Assembly (NCBI RefSeq): GCF_002128425.1
Contig: NZ_NESS01000019.1
Location: 1 to 55,593, forward strand
Direction of reading: 5' to 3'
From: Gottfriedia acidiceleris
Lineage (GTDB): Bacteria; Bacillota; Bacilli; Bacillales; Bacillaceae_G
Length of the DNA stretch: 55,593 nt
The notes under the pieces were generated by a model. That model ran no database searches and had not been told where the DNA came from. It saw only the letters and a program-made list of their open reading frames with translations. Positions 45,519 to 55,593 of this stretch are shown here, piece after piece; within the stretch, counting starts at the first letter, position 1, and every line of letters starts with the position of its first letter. Made by a program: the position numbers and the translations under genes.

Positions 45519-46853
45519 ATGGCTAAGTTTACTAAAGAAGATATTTTCCGTATTTCAAAAGAACAAAACGTAAAGTACATACGTCTACAATTTACGGATT
45601 TACTAGGAATTATCAAAAACGTTGAAATTCCAGTAAGTCAGCTTGAAAAAGCTTTAGACAATAAAATGATGTTTGACGGTTCTTCAATTGAAGGATTCGT
45701 TCGTATCGAAGAATCAGATATGTACTTATTCCCTGATTTAGACACTTGGGTAGTATTCCCATGGACTGCTGAAAAAGGAAAAGTAGCTCGTTTAATCTGT
45801 GATATTTACAATGCAGATGGTACTCCATTTGAAGGAGATCCTCGTAATAACTTAAAACGTATGTTAAAAGAAATGGAAGCTTTAGGCTTCACAGATTTCA
45901 ACTTAGGACCTGAGCCAGAATTCTTCTTATTTAAATTAGATGAAAAAGGCGAACCAACACTTGAATTAAACGATAAAGGTGGTTACTTCGACTTAGCACC
46001 TACTGATTTAGGTGAAAACTGCCGTCGTGATATCGTACTTGAATTAGAAGAAATGGGCTTTGAAATTGAAGCTTCTCACCACGAAGTAGCTCCAGGACAA
46101 CATGAAATTGATTTCAAATATGCTGGTGCAATCAAAGCTTGTGATGACATTCAAACATTTAAATTAGTTGTAAAAACAATCGCTCGTAAACACGGTTTAC
46201 ACGCAACATTCATGCCAAAACCATTATTTGGTGTAAACGGTTCTGGAATGCACTGTAACTTATCATTATTTACAAATGGTAAAAACGCATTTTACGATGA
46301 GACTGGAGAGTTAGGTTTAAGCGAAACTGCACGTCACTTTATCGCAGGTATCTTAAAACACGCACCAAGCTTTACAGCTGTAACAAACCCAACTGTAAAC
46401 TCGTACAAGCGTTTAGTACCAGGCTATGAAGCTCCATGTTACGTTGCTTGGTCTGCAAGAAACCGTAGTCCACTAATTCGTATTCCTGCATCTCGTGGCT
46501 TAAGCACACGTGTAGAAGTACGTTCAGTTGACCCAGCTGCAAACCCATACTTAGCATTATCAGTACTATTAGCAGCAGGCTTAGACGGAATCAAAAACAA
46601 ATTAGAAGCTCCAGCTCCAGTAGACCGTAACATCTATGTTATGTCTAAAGAAGAGCGCGAAGAAGTTGGAATCATCGATTTACCAGCAACTTTAGCAGCT
46701 GCACTTGACTTATTAAAAACTGACGAAGTAATCGTAGGTGCTTTAGGATCACACTTATTCGAACACTTCGTTGAAGCAAAAGAAATTGAATGGGATATCT
46801 TCCGTACTCAAGTTCACCCTTGGGAAAGAGATCAATACATGTCAGTATATTAA
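45519..46853 (+). CDS. glnA: Glutamine synthetase type I (housekeeping)
   Basis: A 444-residue enzyme, the usual Bacillus length. It has [15 protein letters not shown] with Arg62, [22 protein letters not shown], the [17 protein letters not shown] flap with Glu, and the C-terminal [12 protein letters not shown]. It is the GSI-alpha class without adenylylation site. Codon usage is strongly biased (CGT, AAC, TTA, GAA), a sign of high expression. AAAGGGG precedes the ATG. Feedback-inhibited GlnA controls GlnR and TnrA in B. subtilis. Confidence 0.97.
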
Positions 46854-46954
46854 TCAAATCAACCCTTGACGCTATTTGCGTTGAGGGTTTTTTATTTATC
46901 GGGCATTTTTCGTATAATTTAAGATTTCTAAAAATGCCCGATAAATGCCCGGTA
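46839..46954. repeat. glnA 3'-end repeat copy A with attachment-site-like inverted repeat
   Basis: Bases 46839-46906 (last glnA codons, stop, terminator and ATCGGGCAT) recur with roughly 85% identity at 52984-53052. Just behind, TTATCGGGCATTTTT (46896-46910) is a perfect 15-bp inverted repeat of 46930-46944. ATGCCCG occurs again at 46945, giving AAATGCCCGATAAATGCCCG. This is the layout of a recombinase attachment site. Confidence 0.7.
46861..46895 (+). terminator. Terminator of glnA
   Basis: AACCCTTGACGC/GCGTTGAGGGTT stem with a 5-base loop and T6. A degenerate copy of this terminator recurs at 53003-53036. Confidence 0.92.
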
Positions 46955-46966
46955 AATTATTAAAAA

Positions 46967-47140
46967 TTAAAGTGAATTTTTTAAGTGCTCCTCAAATTTA
47001 TTCATTGAATCTATATCAATTTTTTTACTAACATGAGAGTAGACATCAGATCCAATTTCATTTTTATTAAAAAGTCCTGTCGTTTTTGTCAAAGAAACGC
47101 TGCTAAAGGACAGATGCAAAGTGTGTAATTCCAAAAAAGA
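46967..47140 (-). pseudogene. C-terminal remnant of a tyrosine recombinase (integrase)
   Basis: On the minus strand the frame ending at TAA (46967-46969) reads GSDVYSHVSKKIDIDSMNKF then EEHLKNSL, the catalytic-Tyr end of phage-type integrases (YSHVS with Tyr). Upstream, shifted pieces read ITHFASVL and AAVSL, matching the HTHASLLLEAGVSL segment before it. The gene is truncated, has lost the region between and is frameshifted. It lies 13 bases from the repeats at 46945, where integrase genes usually sit next to their att site. Confidence 0.65.
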
Positions 47141-47224
47141 AATGATACTAAATCATCTGAAATTTATAACAACATTAAATTTTAATTTTGTACTTGATTC
47201 ATTTAGGACAAAGGTGTATATTAA

Positions 47225-47291
47225 TTGACATATCAATGATTGACCTATCAATTATTGATATATCAATGATTATTAACAGTTAATAATCATT
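47225..47291 (+). promoter_or_regulatory. MarR operator cluster upstream of the marR-nitroreductase operon
   Basis: TATCAAT-type repeats: TATCAATGATTGACCTATCA, a perfect palindrome ATTGATATATCAAT (47254-47267), and AATGATTATTAA-CAG-TTAATAATCATT (47265-47291, perfect 12-bp arms). TTGACA at 47225-47230 may be a -35. The regulator probably binds here and represses itself. Confidence 0.7.
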
Positions 47292-47315
47292 AATCTTATT
47301 TTTTGGAGGTAGCGC

Positions 47316-47768
47316 GTGCCCAAAACAAAAGAAACAGAAGTATTATCACTATTAAAAGAATTAAAAGTTCAAATAGAAACAACATTTGAAAAATGTATGG
47401 GTATTAGTCAATCACGATTAGAAATTTTAAATCAATTGTTTGAGTACGGTGAAATTAGTCAATCTCAACTTCAAAAAACTTTAAAGATTGATAGTGCTGC
47501 AATTACTAGACATTTAAAACAACTTGAGTTAAATGGAAAAATCACTAGAAGAAAGTGTGAGACTGATAACAGAATAACCTTAGTTAGATTAACACAAATG
47601 GGACAAGATCAAATGTCTTGTTTATGGAAAGAAAAAGTAGAGTTTGTCGAGAACATGCTTATTGGCTTTTCAAATGAAGAAATTGACTTAACACTTGAAT
47701 ATTTAAACCGTATACAAATAAATATGAACCATATCAATTCAAATCGAGATAATCTAAAAGATAATTAA
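47316..47768 (+). CDS. MarR family regulator
   Basis: A 150-residue MarR protein: SRLEILNQLFEYGEISQSQL, a winged helix with DSAAITRHLKQLELNGKITR and wing NRITLVRLT. Three Cys (27, 81, 102) could allow thiol-based sensing of quinones or electrophiles, as in MhqR/YodB-type regulators, though family assignment is unsure. It starts with GTG seven bases after GGAGGT. It is followed at 26 bases by a nitroreductase and then an ABM monooxygenase. Confidence 0.88.
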   Translation: MPKTKETEVLSLLKELKVQIETTFEKCMGISQSRLEILNQLFEYGEISQSQLQKTLKIDSAAITRHLKQLELNGKITRRKCETDNRITLVRLTQMGQDQMSCLWKEKVEFVENMLIGFSNEEIDLTLEYLNRIQINMNHINSNRDNLKDN

Positions 47769-47794
47769 AAATTAGTAAAGAGGAGAATACAACA

Positions 47795-48433
47795 ATGACT
47801 ACGACAATATTAACTAATAATTTTAACGATATTTTAAAAGGAAGACGCTCAATCCGTAAATATGATACAAATCTTAAAATCCCAGTGGAGGAAATGCATG
47901 AAATAATAGAAACAGCTACTTTAGCTCCTTCTTCAGTAAACATGCAACCATGGAGATTTTTAGTAATTGAAAGTGATGAAGCAAAAGCTATATTAGCTCC
48001 ATTAGCTCGATTTAATCAATCACAAGTTGAAACTTCTTCTGCGATGATTGCCCTATTTGGGGACTTAAATAATTTTGACTATGCTGAAGAAATATATGGT
48101 CGTGCAGTTGAATTAGGTTATATGCCAGCAGACGTTAAAGAGAAGCAACTAGAAACACTTAGTGGTTTCTTTGCAAACAGTACAACAGAGCAAATGAAAG
48201 ATACTGTTTTAATTGATGGTGGATTGGTAGCAATGCAATTTATGCTAACTGCTCGTGCTTATGGTTATGACACTTGTCCAATCGGTGGCTTCGAAAAAGA
48301 CAAAATTGCAGAAGCATTCGGTATGGATAAAAACCGATATGTTCCTGTTATGTTGATATCAATTGGTAAAGCAGTTGATGCAGGATATCAATCTGTGCGT
48401 TTACCAGTTGAACGTGTAGCAGAGTGGAAATAA
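47795..48433 (+). CDS. Nitroreductase family protein
   Basis: A 212-residue FMN-dependent nitroreductase: FNDILKGRRSIRKYD start, ETATLAPSSVNMQPWRFLVI, GGLVAMQFMLTARAYGYDTC, PIGGFEKDKIAEAFG and VMLISIGKAV. Such enzymes reduce nitroaromatics or quinones with NAD(P)H. AGAGGAG precedes the ATG. Operon position behind a MarR regulator and before an ABM protein suggests a quinone or electrophile detoxification unit. Confidence 0.9.
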   Translation: MTTTILTNNFNDILKGRRSIRKYDTNLKIPVEEMHEIIETATLAPSSVNMQPWRFLVIESDEAKAILAPLARFNQSQVETSSAMIALFGDLNNFDYAEEIYGRAVELGYMPADVKEKQLETLSGFFANSTTEQMKDTVLIDGGLVAMQFMLTARAYGYDTCPIGGFEKDKIAEAFGMDKNRYVPVMLISIGKAVDAGYQSVRLPVERVAEWK

Positions 48434-48481
48434 AAAATAAAAATAATATATAAAAAACACAATGAAAAGAAGGTAAATATC

Positions 48482-48775
48482 ATGATTATTATCCATGCGA
48501 AAATGACGATTGATACAGCAAAAGAAACGTTATTTTTAGAGGGAATGACCTCGCTATTAGAATTATCAAGAGCAGAAGAAGGTAATCTTTCATACGATTT
48601 GACAAAACAAACGGATAGGGAAAATGAATACATCATGGTCGAAATTTGGCAAGATTTAAATGCTGTAACTGCACATAATACAAGTGCTCATTTTACAGCG
48701 TTTGCAAAAAAAGCTAAAGATTACCTTACAGCGCCTATTCAAATAAATATTTATGAAGCAAATAAAATAAAGTAA
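48482..48775 (+). CDS. Antibiotic biosynthesis monooxygenase (ABM) domain protein
   Basis: A 97-residue ABM/YgiN-like protein: MIIIHAKMTIDTAKETLFLE start, SRAEEGNLSYDLTKQTDREN, MVEIWQDLNAVTAHNTSAHF. Such dimeric alpha/beta barrels act on quinols or small aromatics in some cases. It follows the nitroreductase by 48 bases and is the last gene of the unit; GAAGG lies upstream. A terminator follows at 48903. Confidence 0.85.
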   Translation: MIIIHAKMTIDTAKETLFLEGMTSLLELSRAEEGNLSYDLTKQTDRENEYIMVEIWQDLNAVTAHNTSAHFTAFAKKAKDYLTAPIQINIYEANKIK

Positions 48776-48902
48776 TTTATCAAAAATAAAATTGTGTTAG
48801 AAAATATACAAGAAGAGAAAAATCTAGTTAAAACGTATAATTAATCTATAAGAGCCAGTAATAAATTAGGGTCGTAATGTAAATTAAACCTATCTTAAGT
48901 CT

Positions 48903-48935
48903 AGAGTGTTAATGACTAAACACTCTCTTTTTCAA
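48903..48935 (+). terminator. Terminator of the marR operon
   Basis: Perfect AGAGTGTT/AACACTCT stem with an 8-base loop and CTTTTT. Confidence 0.8.
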
Positions 48936-49265
48936 TCTTTTTTTAACAACATGTGCACCTATACCAACGTTTTATCGCTACCCTGGCTCATCTTTCTTGA
49001 ATTTGAAAATGAGGAAACTATTACCTTCTCTTTTGAAACTTCAAAGCCTTTCTAAAGATTTAAATTATCATCATAAAAATTAAACACGGCCCCAAAAATA
49101 AAGAGGGTTCCCCTATTTTTAGGACACCCTCCTATCTCTTTTTAGTAATTCGTAGTTTTCGCTAATTCTGAATGATTGGGTCAGCAACACGAGTTAAAAA
49201 GAAAATACCAAAATAACAAATATAATAATTAGATTAAATACACCTAAATGACCTGTAAGGAGTAT

Positions 49266-49409
49266 ATGACGAAAGACGTCAACGAAGCGTTTATTACGAT
49301 TATTAAAAATGAAGGTGCAATGATCTATGCAGCTGAAGCGTATCTTAAAGTTATGCAGAAGCAAGGGCGTTATCAACGTGATGTGTATGAATATAAAAAG
49401 GTTTTATAA
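49266..49409 (+). CDS. Small orphan protein, 47 aa
   Basis: A 48-codon frame from ATG 49266 (AAGGAG three bases before) to TAA 49407. The protein MTKDVNEAFITIIKNEGAMI then YAAEAYLKVMQKQGRYQRD is helical and basic at the end. It has its own terminator right after it. It may be the end of a longer truncated gene, since the spacing of AAGGAG is short. Within the 932-bp stretch 48776-49707 it and its terminator, plus the terminator at 48903, are the only features seen. Confidence 0.45.
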   Translation: MTKDVNEAFITIIKNEGAMIYAAEAYLKVMQKQGRYQRDVYEYKKVL

Positions 49410-49423
49410 ATATGGTATTTTGT

Positions 49424-49470
49424 AAAAAAGTAACCCTTCATTCCGGATGGTATTAAAGGTTACTTTTTTT
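49424..49470 (+). terminator. Intrinsic terminator
   Basis: AAAAAAGTAACC/GGTTACTTTTTT stem (49424-49435 with 49458-49469) extended by T residues. Confidence 0.88.
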
Positions 49471-49707
49471 ATATTATTAGCCGAAATATATTGGTTAACT
49501 GACCATAAACTACTGTTTTGATTCTAAAGTAAAAAATTAAATGTTTTTTCACATATTCAATCAACAACAAATCACATTTTTCAGTGCATATCTTAAATAA
49601 AAAAAGAATAAAAGTAAAACTGTAGAAATAAATAAATGTACGATTTGGGTAGCACATCATTTACTTTTTATAAGAGGAGAACGTTTTTAATTAAGGGGGG
49701 AGAAAAG

Positions 49708-50373
49708 TTGAGTTATATAGATTCATTAATAGATCGACAAGTATTTGTACTTTTATCTGGAGATATTGCTTTTGAAGGTATTTTAACAGATGCAGGACAA
49801 GACATACTTGTATTATATAATGGACAAAAATATTATTATATTCCTTGGATTCATGTTCATCGAGTACATTTATGTCAACATGTTAAAAATAAGGTAAATA
49901 CCCCTAATGAACCTTCAATTGCAAATGAAATTGAATCAATATCCTACAGAAAAATTTTAACAAATGCTAGAGGGATCTTCTCAGAAATATATGTTACGGG
50001 TAATTTAACATTTCATGGTTATATTACAAATGTTCTAAGTGACTATATCGTTTTTTATTCTCCTGTATTTAAAACGATGTATATCTCATTAGCTCATTTA
50101 AAGTGGCTCTCACCTTACCACGATAATGTGACACCATATTCAATTGATAATGCAAACTTTCCAATTAATCCATCGAATATATCCCCTGTGCGCTCATTTG
50201 AATCTCAATTAAAAAAAGCAGAAGGAAAGCTCGTTATTTTTGATGGTGGGAATGATCCAATGAAAATTGGTTTGCTTAATACGATTGAAAATAGTGTAAT
50301 TGAACTATCAGTTGCAAGTGGAGAAATCGTCTATTTAAGACTTAACCATGTAAAGTCCGTTCATTTACCTTAA
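49708..50373 (+). CDS. Triple-module DUF2642 protein (paralog 1)
   Basis: A 221-residue protein made of three Sm-like beta-barrel modules with DUF2642-type strands: QVFVLLSGDIAFEGILTDAG...YYIPWIHVHRVHL, EIYVTGNLTFHGYITNVLSD...ISLAHLKWL, and LVIFDGGNDPMKIGLLNTIE...LRLNHVKSVHL. The TTG at 49708 follows GGGGGGAG; the longer frame from 49636 lacks a site. Its sister at 52179 has exactly the same length. DUF2642 proteins are known mainly from spore-formers and have no established role. It precedes the ArsB-like permease. Confidence 0.85.
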   Translation: MSYIDSLIDRQVFVLLSGDIAFEGILTDAGQDILVLYNGQKYYYIPWIHVHRVHLCQHVKNKVNTPNEPSIANEIESISYRKILTNARGIFSEIYVTGNLTFHGYITNVLSDYIVFYSPVFKTMYISLAHLKWLSPYHDNVTPYSIDNANFPINPSNISPVRSFESQLKKAEGKLVIFDGGNDPMKIGLLNTIENSVIELSVASGEIVYLRLNHVKSVHLP

Positions 50374-50437
50374 CTAAAAAATATCAACGATTTGATCCAG
50401 AATGATTCAATGATATATGGATTTTACTGACATCTTT

Positions 50438-50471
50438 AAAGAGATGCTCTTTTCCTAGAGCTTCTCTTTTT
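50438..50471 (+). terminator. Terminator of DUF2642 paralog 1
   Basis: AAAGAGATGCTCT/AGAGCTTCTCTTT stem with one mismatch and T7. The rest of the 412-bp gap (50374-50786) holds only a 33-codon hydrophobic frame at 50568-50669 with no ribosome binding site. Confidence 0.85.
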
Positions 50472-50786
50472 TTATTTAATCGTCAAAGCATAATATAAAC
50501 TAAATAAAAAATTACTAGTTTAAACGACTAAAACTCAATGTCTTGCTCAATTAAGTTAACTCAAAAGTTGGTGGTATATCTTCTAATTACGATATTTGAT
50601 GTACCCTTACTAAGGGCAATTGTCATTATAGTCATTTATCTCTATGGGACATTTGTATTATATAGGTAAAACACCCATCTTTCATATTTTAATGAAATAA
50701 CCTAAAACATGATTGTTATATTTGAATAATAATATAACAAATGGACAAGTTTCATTGGAAAATATTTTATAAGAAGGTGAGTTTTA

Positions 50787-52142
50787 TTGAATTTCGAGAT
50801 TCTAATAAGTGCTAGTGTTTTTCTATTAACAATGGCGGTTATTTTTTGGAGACCAAAAGGTTTAAATGAAGCATGGCCTGCTGCAGTTGGAGCAGCCATT
50901 ATTTTAGTAACTGGGATCGTAACAAAAACTAATTTAATTGATATTGTGCACAAAATTGGTGAAGCTTCTATTACAATTATCGCAACGATTGTAATGGCGA
51001 TTATTTTAGAAAGTTTTGGGTTTTTCCATTGGTCTGCAGCTAGGCTAGCAAGTTTAGCAAAAGGGTCAGGGCGCAGATTATACTGGTATATTCAGCTTTT
51101 GTGCTTTTTGATGACACTGCTGTTTAATAATGATGGTAGTATCTTAATTACAACTCCGATTTTAATTCTCCTATTAAAAAATTTACGGTTAAAACCACAT
51201 CAACAAATCCCATATCTTCTCAGCGGAGCATTAATTGCTACAGCTTCCAGTGCACCGATCGGTGTAAGTAATATCGTAAACTTAATCGCATTAAAAATTG
51301 TTCATATGACTCTTTATATGCACACGGCTATGATGTTTGTCCCTGCAAGTACAGGATTACTTTTTATGTCATGGCTAATGTACATGGTATTAAAAAATAA
51401 ATTACCAGAACGATTGCCAGTGTCTACAGATGATATTGAAGAGTCATTTTTTATTAAAAACTTTCATCCTTTAAAAGGAAAAATGTCAGTAGAAACAAAA
51501 CAAAAAAGAACAAAATTTATGTTAAAGGTACTAGGATTTGTTTTCCTAATGCGCTGCTTATTATTCGTCGCTTCATTTCTTGGAATACCGATTCAATATG
51601 TAGCAGTTTTAGGTTCGCTCGCCTTATTAACTTGGAGATGGTATCACTTACGGACAAGCCCTGTTGATATATTGAAAAAGACGCCTTGGCATATTTTAGT
51701 CTTTGCATTTTCGATGTATGTGATTATATATGGTCTCCATAACGCTGGTTTAACTGCAGCCTTAGTAGAATTCTGTGAACCAATCGTTAATCAAGGGTTA
51801 TTACAAGCAAGTTTTATTATGGGTGGATTAGTTTCAATCCTATCTAATTTGTTTAATAATCATCCTGCTCTAATGGTTGGAACCATTACATTGACAGAAA
51901 TGGGGCTTGATCCAATTACATTAAAGACGATTTATCTAGCTAATATAATCGGTAGTGACATTGGATCACTATTACTTCCTGTAGGTACTTTAGCATCCCT
52001 AATTTGGATGCACATCTTAAAACAAAATAAAATTAAAGTAAAATGGAGGGATTATCTAAATGTATCATTAATCGTCATCCCATTAACAACAATCGTAACG
52101 CTATTTCTACTATTTTATTGGGTGCAATTAATTTTCGCCTAA
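50787..52142 (+). CDS. ArsB-family permease
   Basis: A 451-residue protein with about 11-12 membrane helices that aligns well with E. coli ArsB (429 aa): IFWRPKGLNEAWPAAVGAAI, FFHWSAARLASLAKGSGRRL, LLFNNDGSILITTPILI, SNLFNNHPALMVGTITLTE, YLANIIGSDIGSLLLPVGTLASLIW. ArsB exports arsenite/antimonite. No arsR, arsC or arsA is nearby, so the role may be different. The TTG at 50787 follows AAGGTGAG. It is flanked on both sides by DUF2642 paralogs on the same strand. Confidence 0.87.
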   Translation: MNFEILISASVFLLTMAVIFWRPKGLNEAWPAAVGAAIILVTGIVTKTNLIDIVHKIGEASITIIATIVMAIILESFGFFHWSAARLASLAKGSGRRLYWYIQLLCFLMTLLFNNDGSILITTPILILLLKNLRLKPHQQIPYLLSGALIATASSAPIGVSNIVNLIALKIVHMTLYMHTAMMFVPASTGLLFMSWLMYMVLKNKLPERLPVSTDDIEESFFIKNFHPLKGKMSVETKQKRTKFMLKVLGFVFLMRCLLFVASFLGIPIQYVAVLGSLALLTWRWYHLRTSPVDILKKTPWHILVFAFSMYVIIYGLHNAGLTAALVEFCEPIVNQGLLQASFIMGGLVSILSNLFNNHPALMVGTITLTEMGLDPITLKTIYLANIIGSDIGSLLLPVGTLASLIWMHILKQNKIKVKWRDYLNVSLIVIPLTTIVTLFLLFYWVQLIFA

Positions 52143-52178
52143 TAAACAATATCAATCTACTAGAAAGAGGAGATGCAG

Positions 52179-52844
52179 GTGAGTGATGTACAATCATTAC
52201 TTGGAGAAAAAATTTATGTGCAATTATCAGGTGGGAATTATTTTGAAGGGATTCTAACTGATTATGGTAAAGACGTCTTAGTTTTATACAATGGGCAAAA
52301 ATATTATTATATTCCATGGTTTCACGTCCATAGGGTTAATCTTAGTAACAACTTTAAAGATAAAATAGATGAGCCTATTACACCTTCAATTGCAGAAGAT
52401 ATTGGGACAGTATCTTATCGAAAAATATTAATGAATGCAAAAGGAATTTTTGCTGAAATTTATGTTTCTGGGAACATCACATTTCATGGGTATATTACAA
52501 ACGTATTAAGTGACTATATCGTGTTTTATTCACCAGTTTTTAAAATGTTATATATCCCATTAGCGCATTTAAAATGGCTAACACCATACGATCATAATGC
52601 ACATCCCTATAACTTAGAAATCGAATTATTACCAGTAAATCCATCTAATATGCCATTTTCACGTTTAATTGATTCACAATTAAAAAAAGAAGAGGGGAAA
52701 TTTATCGTATTTGATGGAGGGCTTGATCCAATGAAAATTGGATTGCTCAAGAGAGTGGAGGATGGTGTAATTGAATTAGTAGCTGCAAATGGAGAGATAA
52801 CATTATTGAGACTTAATCATATTAAATCTTATCACATACCATAG
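52179..52844 (+). CDS. Triple-module DUF2642 protein (paralog 2)
   Basis: A 221-residue protein with the same three-module order as paralog 1: KIYVQLSGGNYFEGILTDYG...IPWFHVHRV, EIYVSGNITFHGYITNVLSD...IPLAHLKWL, FIVFDGGLDPMKIGLLKRVE...LRLNHIKSY. By eye roughly two thirds of residues match paralog 1. The GTG at 52179 is six bases after AGAGGAG; the ATG at 52173 abuts it. It starts 36 bases after the permease, so it is probably in the same transcript. Confidence 0.85.
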   Translation: MSDVQSLLGEKIYVQLSGGNYFEGILTDYGKDVLVLYNGQKYYYIPWFHVHRVNLSNNFKDKIDEPITPSIAEDIGTVSYRKILMNAKGIFAEIYVSGNITFHGYITNVLSDYIVFYSPVFKMLYIPLAHLKWLTPYDHNAHPYNLEIELLPVNPSNMPFSRLIDSQLKKEEGKFIVFDGGLDPMKIGLLKRVEDGVIELVAANGEITLLRLNHIKSYHIP

Positions 52845-52847
52845 CCG

Positions 52848-53111
52848 ATGAATTTCGTAAAAAGATTTTTTATCTTCCACTTCATTGCCAATCTTCTTCC
52901 ATTAATTACACTGATGTTTCTTCCGGTTTTCATTATCACAAATGATGTGGATCTATTTGAAAAACTAATTTTTAGGAGAGTATATATGTCAGTATAGTAA
53001 TTAAATCGACCTTTGACGTTTTGGCGTTGAGGGTTTTTCTATTATCGGGCATGGTCCCGCTTGAATCAGAAATTGATTTACATTTTATTTAAGAAAATAG
53101 CCTTGAATTAG
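52848..53111 (+). CDS. Possible small membrane protein, disrupted by the repeat
   Basis: An 87-codon frame starting three bases after the DUF2642 stop. The first 46 residues (MNFVKRFFIFHFIANLLPLI, then FLPVFIITNDVDLFEKLIFR) look like a one- or two-span membrane protein. From about 52984 the frame reads through the glnA-tail repeat and loses protein character. No ribosome binding site, so coupling to the upstream gene would be needed. Probably the 5' part of a gene cut at the repeat boundary. Confidence 0.3.
52984..53052 (+). repeat. glnA 3'-end repeat copy B
   Basis: ATGTCAGTATAG matches the last glnA codons (Met-Ser-Val then TAG). It is followed by a copy of the glnA terminator (TTTGACG...GCGTTGAGGGTTTTT) and ends in ATTATCGGGCAT like copy A. 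Beyond it the similarity stops. Confidence 0.75.
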
Positions 53112-53817
53112 ATAAATGTACAACGGGAATTATGTTACGAAAAGAGGCTGTTTTGGCCATAACATGAGACGAAAATTATGAAACAAGGCTGGGCAAGTTA
53201 TTGGCATATAAGAATAATGCGTGAATTAAATCTTGATTCAAATGAAGCAATCGAATACGCAAAACTAAATGCAGGAGTAGTTCAACCTTCTAAAACAAGT
53301 ATTAACCCGTATTATTTAGGACTAAGAATGTTTGAAGATATTGAAGAGCGATATAATGATCCCACGAAAGAAATGAGAGAATTAGGTGTTAAACCTGGCA
53401 GCGGTAGAGAAAAAATGTTTGAAGTACGTGAGTTAGAGTCTGATAGTTCCTTTATACGAAACTACTTAACGAAAGACCTTGTCATGCGTGAAGATATGTA
53501 TCTATTCCAGCGACAAGGTAAGGAGTATAAAAGTTACTGATAAGGCATGGGAGAATGTACGAGATCAACTTGTAGTTAGTAGAGTAAATGGAGGATTCCC
53601 TTATATTGTATTTCAAGAAGGGGAGTATTTAAAAAATGGTGAGCTTTATTTGAAGCATTCCTATGAAACTATGGAGCTTGAGGTGAAGTACGTTGAGAAG
53701 GTAATGCCTTATATTCATCAGTTGTGGGGTAGAGGGGTTCATTTAGAGACGAATATTGAGAATAAGTCTGTGTTGTTTAGTTATGATGGAAAGAATATTC
53801 ATCGGAAGTATATTTGA
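53095..53817 (+). pseudogene. Truncated, frameshifted spoVR (stage V sporulation protein R)
   Basis: Only the C-terminal half of SpoVR is present. Fragments: LRKEA and FWP near 53137-53159, an in-frame TAA at 53160 where Gln is expected, then [20 protein letters not shown] and [20 protein letters not shown] (frame of 53178-53540). One extra A near 53533 shifts to [20 protein letters not shown] and the normal end NIHRKYI at 53817. The N-terminal roughly 250 residues are missing. It lies directly beyond repeat copy B. An intact spoVR probably exists elsewhere. Confidence 0.85.
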
Positions 53818-53818
53818 G

Positions 53819-53843
53819 ACCACCTTTTATAGGTGGTTTTCTT
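53819..53843 (+). terminator. Terminator of spoVR remnant
   Basis: ACCACC/GGTGGT stem with a 7-base loop and TTTTCTTT. Confidence 0.75.
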
Positions 53844-53996
53844 TATGGATTAGAAAGTATAGAATTCTTTTTCGGTAAGTGAACCTTATGTAACTACCAT
53901 GAAAAAACCTTACGGTATCCATGTGAAAAATTGCATAACTAAAGAAGACGTCTTAAAAGGCGTCTAGCAGTAAAAAATATATTAGTGGTTGATGGA

Positions 53997-55211
53997 TTAA
54001 GAGACTTCTTCGATCGATACAGAATACCCTAATTTTTCGAGTCTTCGAACTGAATAACGGACCATTGATGCTTCTTTTTGTTTGTCAAAATAATCTTCTC
54101 CTAAGTCTCTGTACATTTCTTTCCTGGTCAGAAGATAATAGGCGATTCTTAACATGGCATGTGCTACTACTATTCCTGCTCTTTTCCTACCTTTTCGTGC
54201 TGCTGTTCTTCGATACATTGCTCCAAGGTAGTTTTTGGATGCACCCACAGAATGTGCGGCTTCAGTTAAGGCTGCTTTAAAATACTTGTTGCCTTTTTTG
54301 GATTTAGTTGATTTCCTTTTACCAGCGCTTTCATTATGTCCAGGAACTAATGCTGCCCAGGAACATAATCGGGGTGCACTCCCAAACTGGTTCTCTAGAT
54401 CTGTTCCAATTTCGGCGAGTATCTGTTCAGCCATACGTGTAGCGATACCTGGAATTGAGTCCAGTCGTTCTATGTCTTCTTGATAAGAGCTTACTCTTTG
54501 GGTTACTTCTAAATCGAGTTTTTCAATTTGTTCAGTTAGAAAATCAATGTGAGTTAATATTGTTTTCAGCATCATACGTTGATGAGGATTAACATAACCT
54601 CGTAGAGCGAGCTCAAGTTCATCCTTTTTTCGTTTTAATGAGCGACGAGCCATACTTGCTAGTTTCGTAGGATCTTCTTCTCCATCTGCAATAGCGTAAA
54701 GCATTTCTTTAGATGAAACACCCATAATATCTGAAACAACAGAGCCCAGTTTAATATTCGCACCTTCCAGTACTTTTTGAATTCTATTAAGTTGTCTAGA
54801 GCGTTCTTCAATTATACTTCTACGATATCGAACTAGTTCTCTTAATTCGCGTTGTTGTCGATTGGGAATGAAGCTGGCTGTTAGTAACCCATGACGGAGA
54901 AGTTGGGCAATCCATTCTGCATCTTTTACGTCAGTTTTTCGTCCAGGAGCTTTCATATGTTGTGCATTGACGACAAAAACTTCTAAATCTTCAGCTTCAA
55001 CTAAATTAACAATGGGTTTCCAATACACACCTGTACTTTCCATTGCGACATGGGTACACCCATGTGATTTTATCCAATCCATCAATTTTATTAAAAATAT
55101 TGTTTTCGTTGAAAACGTTTGAATCTCCTTTCCTTCTGGTGTCATAATACAGGCAGTAATGTTGTCCTTGTGAACATCCATTCCGCAAACTCGTTCAATG
55201 ATAACTTCCAT
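53997..55211 (-). CDS. IS110-family transposase (DEDD recombinase)
   Basis: A 404-residue IS110 transposase. The N-terminal RuvC-like DEDD tetrad is visible: Asp12 (CGMDVHKD), Glu58 (AMESTGVYW), Asp94 and Asp97 (KTDVKDAEW). The C-terminal transposase_20 domain has LDSIPGIATRMAEQILAEIG and SWAALVPGHNESAGKRKSTK, including the likely catalytic Ser. The frame is intact. The ATG at 55211 is nine bases after AAGGAAGG; an ATG at 55220 abuts it. It lies on the minus strand beyond the spoVR remnant. Confidence 0.93.
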   Translation of the reverse strand: MEVIIERVCGMDVHKDNITACIMTPEGKEIQTFSTKTIFLIKLMDWIKSHGCTHVAMESTGVYWKPIVNLVEAEDLEVFVVNAQHMKAPGRKTDVKDAEWIAQLLRHGLLTASFIPNRQQRELRELVRYRRSIIEERSRQLNRIQKVLEGANIKLGSVVSDIMGVSSKEMLYAIADGEEDPTKLASMARRSLKRKKDELELALRGYVNPHQRMMLKTILTHIDFLTEQIEKLDLEVTQRVSSYQEDIERLDSIPGIATRMAEQILAEIGTDLENQFGSAPRLCSWAALVPGHNESAGKRKSTKSKKGNKYFKAALTEAAHSVGASKNYLGAMYRRTAARKGRKRAGIVVAHAMLRIAYYLLTRKEMYRDLGEDYFDKQKEASMVRYSVRRLEKLGYSVSIEEVS

Positions 55212-55214
55212 TGA

Positions 55215-55500
55215 ATTCATCCTTCCTTTGGCTTTAAAAGTAGGGGCTGGTGCAAAAATCAGAATAGGATTAATCTACCATGAGTGCTTCCCGTAAGGGA
55301 GCGACAGACTGTGATGCACCGTGATCGTTGGAGTCAGACTAAATGATGGGCTCTAATGGCACCATAGTTGATCGACCTTCCTCACCCAGCCATAGAAGCA
55401 GTATTGACGATTTTTATTCTTTTTCATTCGCTGTGGTGCAGCGCTTGCGCTGCATGGGTGGCTAAATGGCAGATTAGTTGTGCGAAATGTTTCTAGCTTA
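55215..55500 (-). ncRNA. Candidate IS110 bridge-RNA region (non-coding left end)
   Basis: The approximately 280 bases upstream of the transposase on its strand have no gene. They hold strong hairpins: TGCAGCGC-TT-GCGCTGCA (55437-55454, perfect) and TCCC-GTAA-GGGA (55289-55300). IS110-group elements encode a structured bridge RNA in this position that specifies target and donor. Exact ends are not determinable by eye. Confidence 0.6.
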
Positions 55501-55593
55501 AATAGAGAATGGTTACATTACTCTGGTAAAGGCTAGACAGTTCCTTTCGGAATTGAAGGATTATATCGAAGAATCAAATGATTGGGTAACGCC
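55501..55593. other. Window edge beyond the IS110 element, unassigned
   Basis: An open frame without a start reads ENGYITLVKARQFLSELKDY and continues off the window. It has no visible start codon with ribosome site and no recognisable family, so no gene is called. Confidence 0.4.

Follow-up and report, generated by a model that had tools for sequence, protein, structure and literature searches.

Lambda-type prophages integrate into the 3' end of a host gene and restore that gene. SPbeta uses a serine integrase. SPbeta is described as being inserted in spsM (PMC4191935). Titles and abstract openings of the open-access literature yielded nothing relevant on glnA as a phage attachment site or on the phage SPbetaL5 by name. 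In our comparisons, the integrase of Bacillus phage SPbetaL5 (OQ921345.1) ranked best in the phage collection, being 57.6% identical over 99% of the query. Read by eye, the attP of this phage consists of arm sites, the last 18 glnA codons with the stop codon, further arm sites and then the integrase gene; a profile of the glnA tail recovered the phage-borne codons with an E value of 1.5e-15. These limits agree with other loci, since among 14 loci that extend 1,000 bp or more past the integrase and lack a whole glnA, the similarity to GlnA starts at residue 425-429 in 12 (in L166 and L170 it starts before residue 425).

Integrated forms were found among bacteria. For this purpose 60 genomes were searched, and the DNA downstream of glnA was read in 12 relatives of the same genus and four genomes of other genera. 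Full elements with an intact integrase at glnA, which an earlier, sequence-only reading of the DNA studied here had suggested looking for, are present in three genomes of other genera (G058, G027 and G013): a minus-strand tyrosine integrase lies just after glnA and a second glnA tail about 40 kb away. The three G058 prophage proteins scanned against PHROGs were an integrase, a repressor and a portal protein, and several gene clusters of G058 recur in G027 and G013. Because G058 carries phage genes, a plasmid or ICE origin of the element appears unlikely. Inspection by eye located three tandem sites about 100-130 bp to the left of the right copy in G058, G027, G013, G057 and a decayed element of G012; the left copy is followed by sites of similar sequence, one of them inverted and two direct. 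By its sequence pattern, this arrangement corresponds to the P and P' arms of a lambda-type integrase, and in the three integrases scanned Pfam recognised an arm-binding, a SAM-like and a catalytic domain.

The glnA end and the left copy

The window, that is the whole stretch analysed, is contig NZ_NESS01000019.1 of Gottfriedia acidiceleris (RefSeq GCF_002128425.1), positions 1-55,593 of the forward strand. The sequence-only reading had reported a direct repeat of about 85% identity at 46839-46906 and 52984-53052, had placed an attachment site at the 3' end of glnA and had called for the copies to be aligned. The repeat is present. Aligned with each other, the copies are 85% identical over 72 bp, with an E value of 3.1e-15 in a search of the whole genome; the matching segments are 46835-46871 with 52982-53018 (86%) and 46875-46906 with 53021-53052 (88%). 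When 46780-46960 was compared with the whole genome, three matches were returned, namely the query itself, 52982-53052 and its own inverted repeat, and no further copy was found elsewhere in the genome. Local alignment of the repeat with 47200-55593 scored 90, compared with a maximum of 34 among 500 block shuffles, and a chance repeat was dropped on this basis. Mere similarity between terminators was also dropped, since the repeat spans codons and an arm site. The right copy was in addition recovered by the glnA-tail profile (E 5e-6).

The left copy begins within glnA, which is an intact open reading frame on the plus strand (45519-46853) whose codons were compared with phage-borne or displaced copies. 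Its last 18 codons and stop (46797-46853) are the part that phages carry in attP. An intrinsic terminator, contained in the left repeat, follows at 46863-46893 on the same strand; by eye, most relatives have their own version of a terminator 3' of the glnA stop, and a clear one is missing in a few (L163, L173, L177, L179 and L204). Next come three putative P'-arm sites, one inverted (TGCCCGAT, 46898-46905, minus strand) and two direct (TGCCCGAT and TGCCCGGT, 46935-46953, plus strand), the latter starting at 46935 and 46946 and thus 11 bp apart, as in relatives. The 55.6-kb window has just three exact matches to TGCCCGAT, at 46898(-), 46935(+) and 53044(-), two of them adjoining the left copy and one within the right copy; with one mismatch allowed there are 20 matches, which equals chance expectation. 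The TGCCCGAT-type sites are followed by the last 30 codons of an integrase gene on the opposite strand, whose stop codon (46967-46969) falls within the expected distance of about 90-190 bp from the glnA stop ending at 46853. Since the glnA tail, the geometry of the arm sites and the integrase C-terminus are all as in relatives, the left copy is, as read from its sequence, the attL of a prophage once integrated at glnA. On these points the earlier proposal was borne out: the glnA 3' end as attachment site by the integrase loci at glnA and the SPbetaL5 attP, and the attL anatomy with an adjoining tyrosine-integrase remnant by the layout in relatives.

The remnant itself comprises the last 30 codons and stop of a tyrosine integrase (46967-47059, minus strand), the rest of the gene being gone. 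Its codons (46970-47059) are 70% identical over 30 residues to the integrase of Bacillus sp. REN10 (L150), 63% to that of L142 and 57% to that of L140. It retains the tyrosine of DVYSH, presumably the integrase nucleophile. Pfam and PHROGs scans of the minus-strand frame found no family, so that the identification comes from direct comparison with relatives; PF00589, PF14659 and PF14657 are present in the three relatives' integrases scanned, and the last 30 residues kept in the window gave no HMM match. The sequence-only reading had taken the whole frame 46967-47140 as the remnant and had named a lack of integrase homology there as a ground against itself. Homology does exist in the last 30 codons, as the match to L150 demonstrates, and the rest of the frame is not integrase.

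Integrase homology at the DNA level stops at 47058 with G004, G012 and G057. When 80 integrase regions were aligned to the window, 43 alignments ended at or before 47058, seven at 47059-47070 and 30 beyond 47070, the last being gapped and of lower identity and reaching 47092 at the furthest. Homology to the DNA upstream of marR begins at 47059 with G011 (89%), at 47071 with G005 and at 47134 with G006, marking 47059-47315 as probable older chromosomal DNA. As integrase homology ends where marR-upstream homology starts, the remnant is fused to DNA that lies downstream of glnA in relatives. The sequences place the fusion point at about 47060 and not beyond 47092; the exact base is not fixed. Within this upstream region, 47224-47271 contains three copies of an 18-nt repeat (ATTGACATATCAATGATT type), 15 bp apart, which are possibly operator sites.

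The gene block and the right copy

Between the copies lie 6.1 kb, which the sequence-only reading had regarded as element cargo. The plus strand encodes a marR regulator, a nitroreductase and an ABM monooxygenase (47316-48775; family matches and gene order in relatives), a 53-codon remnant of an FAD/NAD-binding reductase gene (49248-49409; gap alignments and C-terminal similarity seen by eye), and a DUF2642-like gene, an arsB-like transporter gene and a second DUF2642-like gene (49709-52844; family matches and arsB in relatives). The reductase gene is whole in relatives, where its family was assigned by a domain scan; apart from the remnant, this gene and its neighbour are deleted in the window. 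The order marR, nitroreductase, ABM, at least two further genes, DUF2642, arsB and DUF2642 is found downstream of glnA in G005, G006 and G011, and G005 and G011 have two or three genes more than the window within an otherwise identical order. G012 has the same order on a contig that lacks glnA. At 95-97% identity, arsB is located downstream of glnA in G002, G005, G006, G007, G009 and G011. The region is not static, as the nitroreductase gene is located elsewhere in G002 and G009.

With the tail profile (E up to 0.05), no second glnA tail was detected in either G005 or G011 over the roughly 36 kb downstream of glnA. Cargo of a single element should be missing from relatives without a second tail, and the interior genes are present in both. 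This is the circumstance that the earlier reading had itself set against its proposal, ancestral synteny of these genes after glnA without the second repeat, and for the gene block it holds; the notion of cargo is accordingly not supported. These comparisons suggest that the block, from marR up to and including the second DUF2642 gene, is bacterial DNA of greater age that the left element did not bring in. Genes flanked by a pair of att-like repeats need not be cargo, and here relatives point to an older block.

The right copy (52982-53052, plus strand), identified by repeat searches and the tail profile, consists of a degenerate glnA tail, a terminator and one arm site on the minus strand (53044-53051), an exact TGCCCGAT match; it ends with the same ATCGGGCAT arm site as the left copy. 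Most of the coding core has been lost. No P-arm sites were found left of 52982 in the window by arm-site search and comparison. Among ten right copies compared by eye, five (G058, G027, G013, G057 and the G012 element) have three P-arm sites left of the second tail, and the window does not. Consequently, the two copies could not be upheld as attL and attR of one element, the integrase remnant being moreover fused to older DNA. In both the window and G006 the second DUF2642 gene is followed by the right copy, with part of the flank kept; owing to this shared position, the junction is not likely an assembly error. In G006 the 5' limit of the copy reaches near the att core limit. A single arm site on the right is as would be seen in an attL or an older scar, not in a fresh attB. 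The right copy is, to judge from its sequence, best read as an older glnA-tail scar and not as the partner of the left copy.

Beyond the right copy lies a fragment of the spoVR 3' end (53165-53830, plus strand; family match and comparison with relatives). In G003, G010 and G002 the glnA tail is followed by such a fragment within about 250 bp, with no block between. An empty site of the kind that had been proposed for comparison would look like this if the block had been inserted. Judged by eye, the upstream boundaries of the fragments suggest two classes, with the window's fragment grouping with those of G003, G010 and G002. Many genomes of the genus have, in addition to full spoVR genes, several such fragments of about 212 codons, some less than 20 kb from a full gene, and four dispersed copies that were aligned have a common 5' limit. 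A tree of the fragments, tried as a test of orthology, could not settle the matter, as they are multi-copy and poorly resolved. Near the contig end, 53997-55220 is a 407-codon minus-strand ORF, which we take to resemble an IS110-type transposase.

How the locus may have formed

The account that we consider probable combines a prophage attL at glnA, a later deletion that fused the integrase end to an older block, and a right copy that is an older scar. The attP would have contained the last 18 glnA codons and the stop between two sets of arm sites, and integration would exchange the glnA tail for the phage-supplied one, leaving the gene whole. A prophage with TGCCCGAT-type arms would have integrated at glnA in this manner, the left copy being its attL, and the glnA tail of this strain would hence be of phage origin. 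A later deletion, presumed to be a single one, would have run from inside the integrase gene to about 47060, removing the phage body together with its own attR, as well as some of the older region, and joining the last 30 integrase codons to DNA already downstream of glnA. The right copy would be an older glnA-tail scar beyond that region, presumably left by an earlier integration. Of these elements, comparison directly shows the attachment site and the phage attP, the anatomy of the attL, the point of fusion, and the presence of the same genes in relatives in which a second tail was not detected. Against the deletion account stand the unexplained position of the scar to the right of the DUF2642-arsB block and the resemblance of G002, G003 and G010 to an empty site.

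This resemblance is the best evidence for another explanation, which we regard as unlikely: the stretch running from glnA through the second DUF2642 gene, which measures about 28 kb in G006, would be one very old integrated island, the right copy its eroded attR and the left copy the mark of a later phage. The right copy lies at the same place in G006, reaching there about the 5' limit of the att core, and in G009 and G011 the right flank of the block is joined to the 3' end of a spoVR fragment, colinear with the window and without a tail. In addition, the distance between glnA and lexA is about 6 kb in G008, 13 kb in G004 and 31 kb in G001, compared with 49-69 kb in G005, G011, G006, G009 and G002 (in the other five of the 13 genomes they are on different contigs). 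The spread between 6-13 and 49-69 kb may mean that the block as a whole arrived at glnA, and a second tail may once have been present in G005 and G011 and then been lost; the species relations behind such comparisons rest on single-gene trees. However, P-arm sites are missing at the right copy, and the sequence that G002 and G007 have in common extends about 140 bp past the conserved DUF2642 flank and contains no tail; in this part G012 is weakly like G002. Moreover, the five proteins scanned from the G006 block were a transporter, a reductase, an amidohydrolase, a carrier and an S51 peptidase, with no phage protein among them.

An original single element of 6.1 kb, with the two copies as its attL and attR and retained cargo between, would account for the attL anatomy and the integrase remnant at the left, and would resemble the 7.4-kb element of G012, which is flanked by two glnA tails and has P-arm sites as well as an integrase remnant. 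Yet it is contradicted by G005 and G011, in which the block is present and a second tail was not detected, unless the right copy has disappeared from both; the fusion at about 47060 and the missing P arm also speak against it, and we give it very little credence. Even less credible is an origin of the right copy by duplication of the glnA tail, homologous or illegitimate, without site-specific recombination. The loss of most of the coding core from the window's right copy, together with its missing left-side arm sites, would suit such an event, but the right copy ends with the ATCGGGCAT arm site of the left copy, and the G006 copy has its 5' limit near that of the att core. The attL with a later deletion and an older scar remains our preferred reading.

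A glnA-targeting integrase clade and known systems

Genome contigs were scanned with an alignment of five integrases, yielding 63 loci. At an integrase identity of at least 49%, a distance of 88-191 bp separates the GlnA C-terminus from the point where the integrase match ends in 52 of 55 loci; at 38% or less, none of eight loci has a GlnA C-terminus nearby. The three exceptions at 49-70% identity, L144, L182 and L194, are not at glnA (by eye, L182 has a similar terminator without glnA codons). The hosts include Bacillus, Halobacillus, Domibacillus, Brevibacillus and Paenibacillus. A scan of viral sequences returned 80 loci, 60 of which had less than 60 bp beyond the integrase and were left out; 12 of the 20 testable loci have the GlnA end, and the other eight contigs stop within 142 bp of the integrase. 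A script found P' sites in 57 of 64 loci with a GlnA end; 53 of these 57 have a spacing of 11 bp between the direct sites, and in 49 the inverted site is 36-41 bp away. In Priestia abyssalis (L193) the integrase lies at a gene only 55% identical to GlnA; this gene is perhaps a GlnA paralogue, and the target range may extend beyond glnA itself. Judged by these comparisons, a clade of prophage tyrosine integrases across the Bacillales uses the glnA 3' end as its attB. The attachment site is protein-coding, being the end of the gene for glutamine synthetase, and this one clade uses it in Bacillaceae, Paenibacillaceae and one Caryophanaceae genome. Within the genus, extra glnA-tail copies were found downstream of glnA in G001, G002, G006, G009 and G012; that of G002 is partial (E 0.002) and, by eye, has a different arm-like sequence.

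Arm sites were studied in 65 integrases, the 64 matches and SPbetaL5. Labels were given by hand to 56, a few where a site had been lost, leaving nine unlabelled (near-copies or unclear sites), and ten of the 56 were dropped as not open or not full length, so that 46 were compared. The nearest neighbour by the N-terminal domain (residues 1-58) has the same arm type in 42 of 46, and by the core-binding or the catalytic domain in 33 of 46 each; label shuffles gave a mean of about 12.5 and a maximum of 26. These counts are inflated by near-copies, the short domain is noisy and the labels were made knowing the question. On the whole-protein tree the labels need 12 changes, the minimum being 6 and shuffles giving 22.9. 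The five integrases of the GCCCGA type, that of the window, form one supported group. As far as sequences indicate, integrases of this clade keep the glnA site and differ in arm sites, which track the N-terminal domain. We lean slightly towards a broader picture in which the glnA 3' end would be a fixed, order-wide attB, one clade would have retained its core target and switched arm sequence several times together with its N-terminal domain, and the glnA-lexA interval of the genus would be a stack of such scars. With a near-fixed core and arm geometry and differing arm sequences, the clade suits the study of how arm specificity of lambda-type integrases evolves.

Compared with described systems, the locus shares with SPbetaL5 a tyrosine integrase and an attP with 18 glnA codons and a stop flanked by arm sites on both sides. 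The phage has GACCAC-type arm sites instead of TGCCCGAT and a record of 127 kb, whereas the window retains 30 integrase codons only. The Heyndrickxia ginsengihumi prophage (G058; L140, a 100% integrase match) is alike in its minus-strand integrase after glnA, the tail about 40 kb away and three P-arm sites, and differs in its repressor and portal genes and its CACCCAC-type arm sites. Within the genus, the decayed 7.4-kb element of G012 likewise has a glnA tail on both sides and a 105-codon integrase remnant beside the left copy; however, its right copy keeps three P-arm sites, and its contents include RHS-repeat proteins (two in L057 1958-7028, one of them ending in a Pfam Bacterial toxin 8 domain). 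With lambda-type integration in general, the system has in common a core in a gene end, a 3' part supplied by the phage, arms on both sides and an N-terminal arm-binding domain (Pfam Arm-DNA-bind_4), the difference being that the target here is the glutamine synthetase gene.
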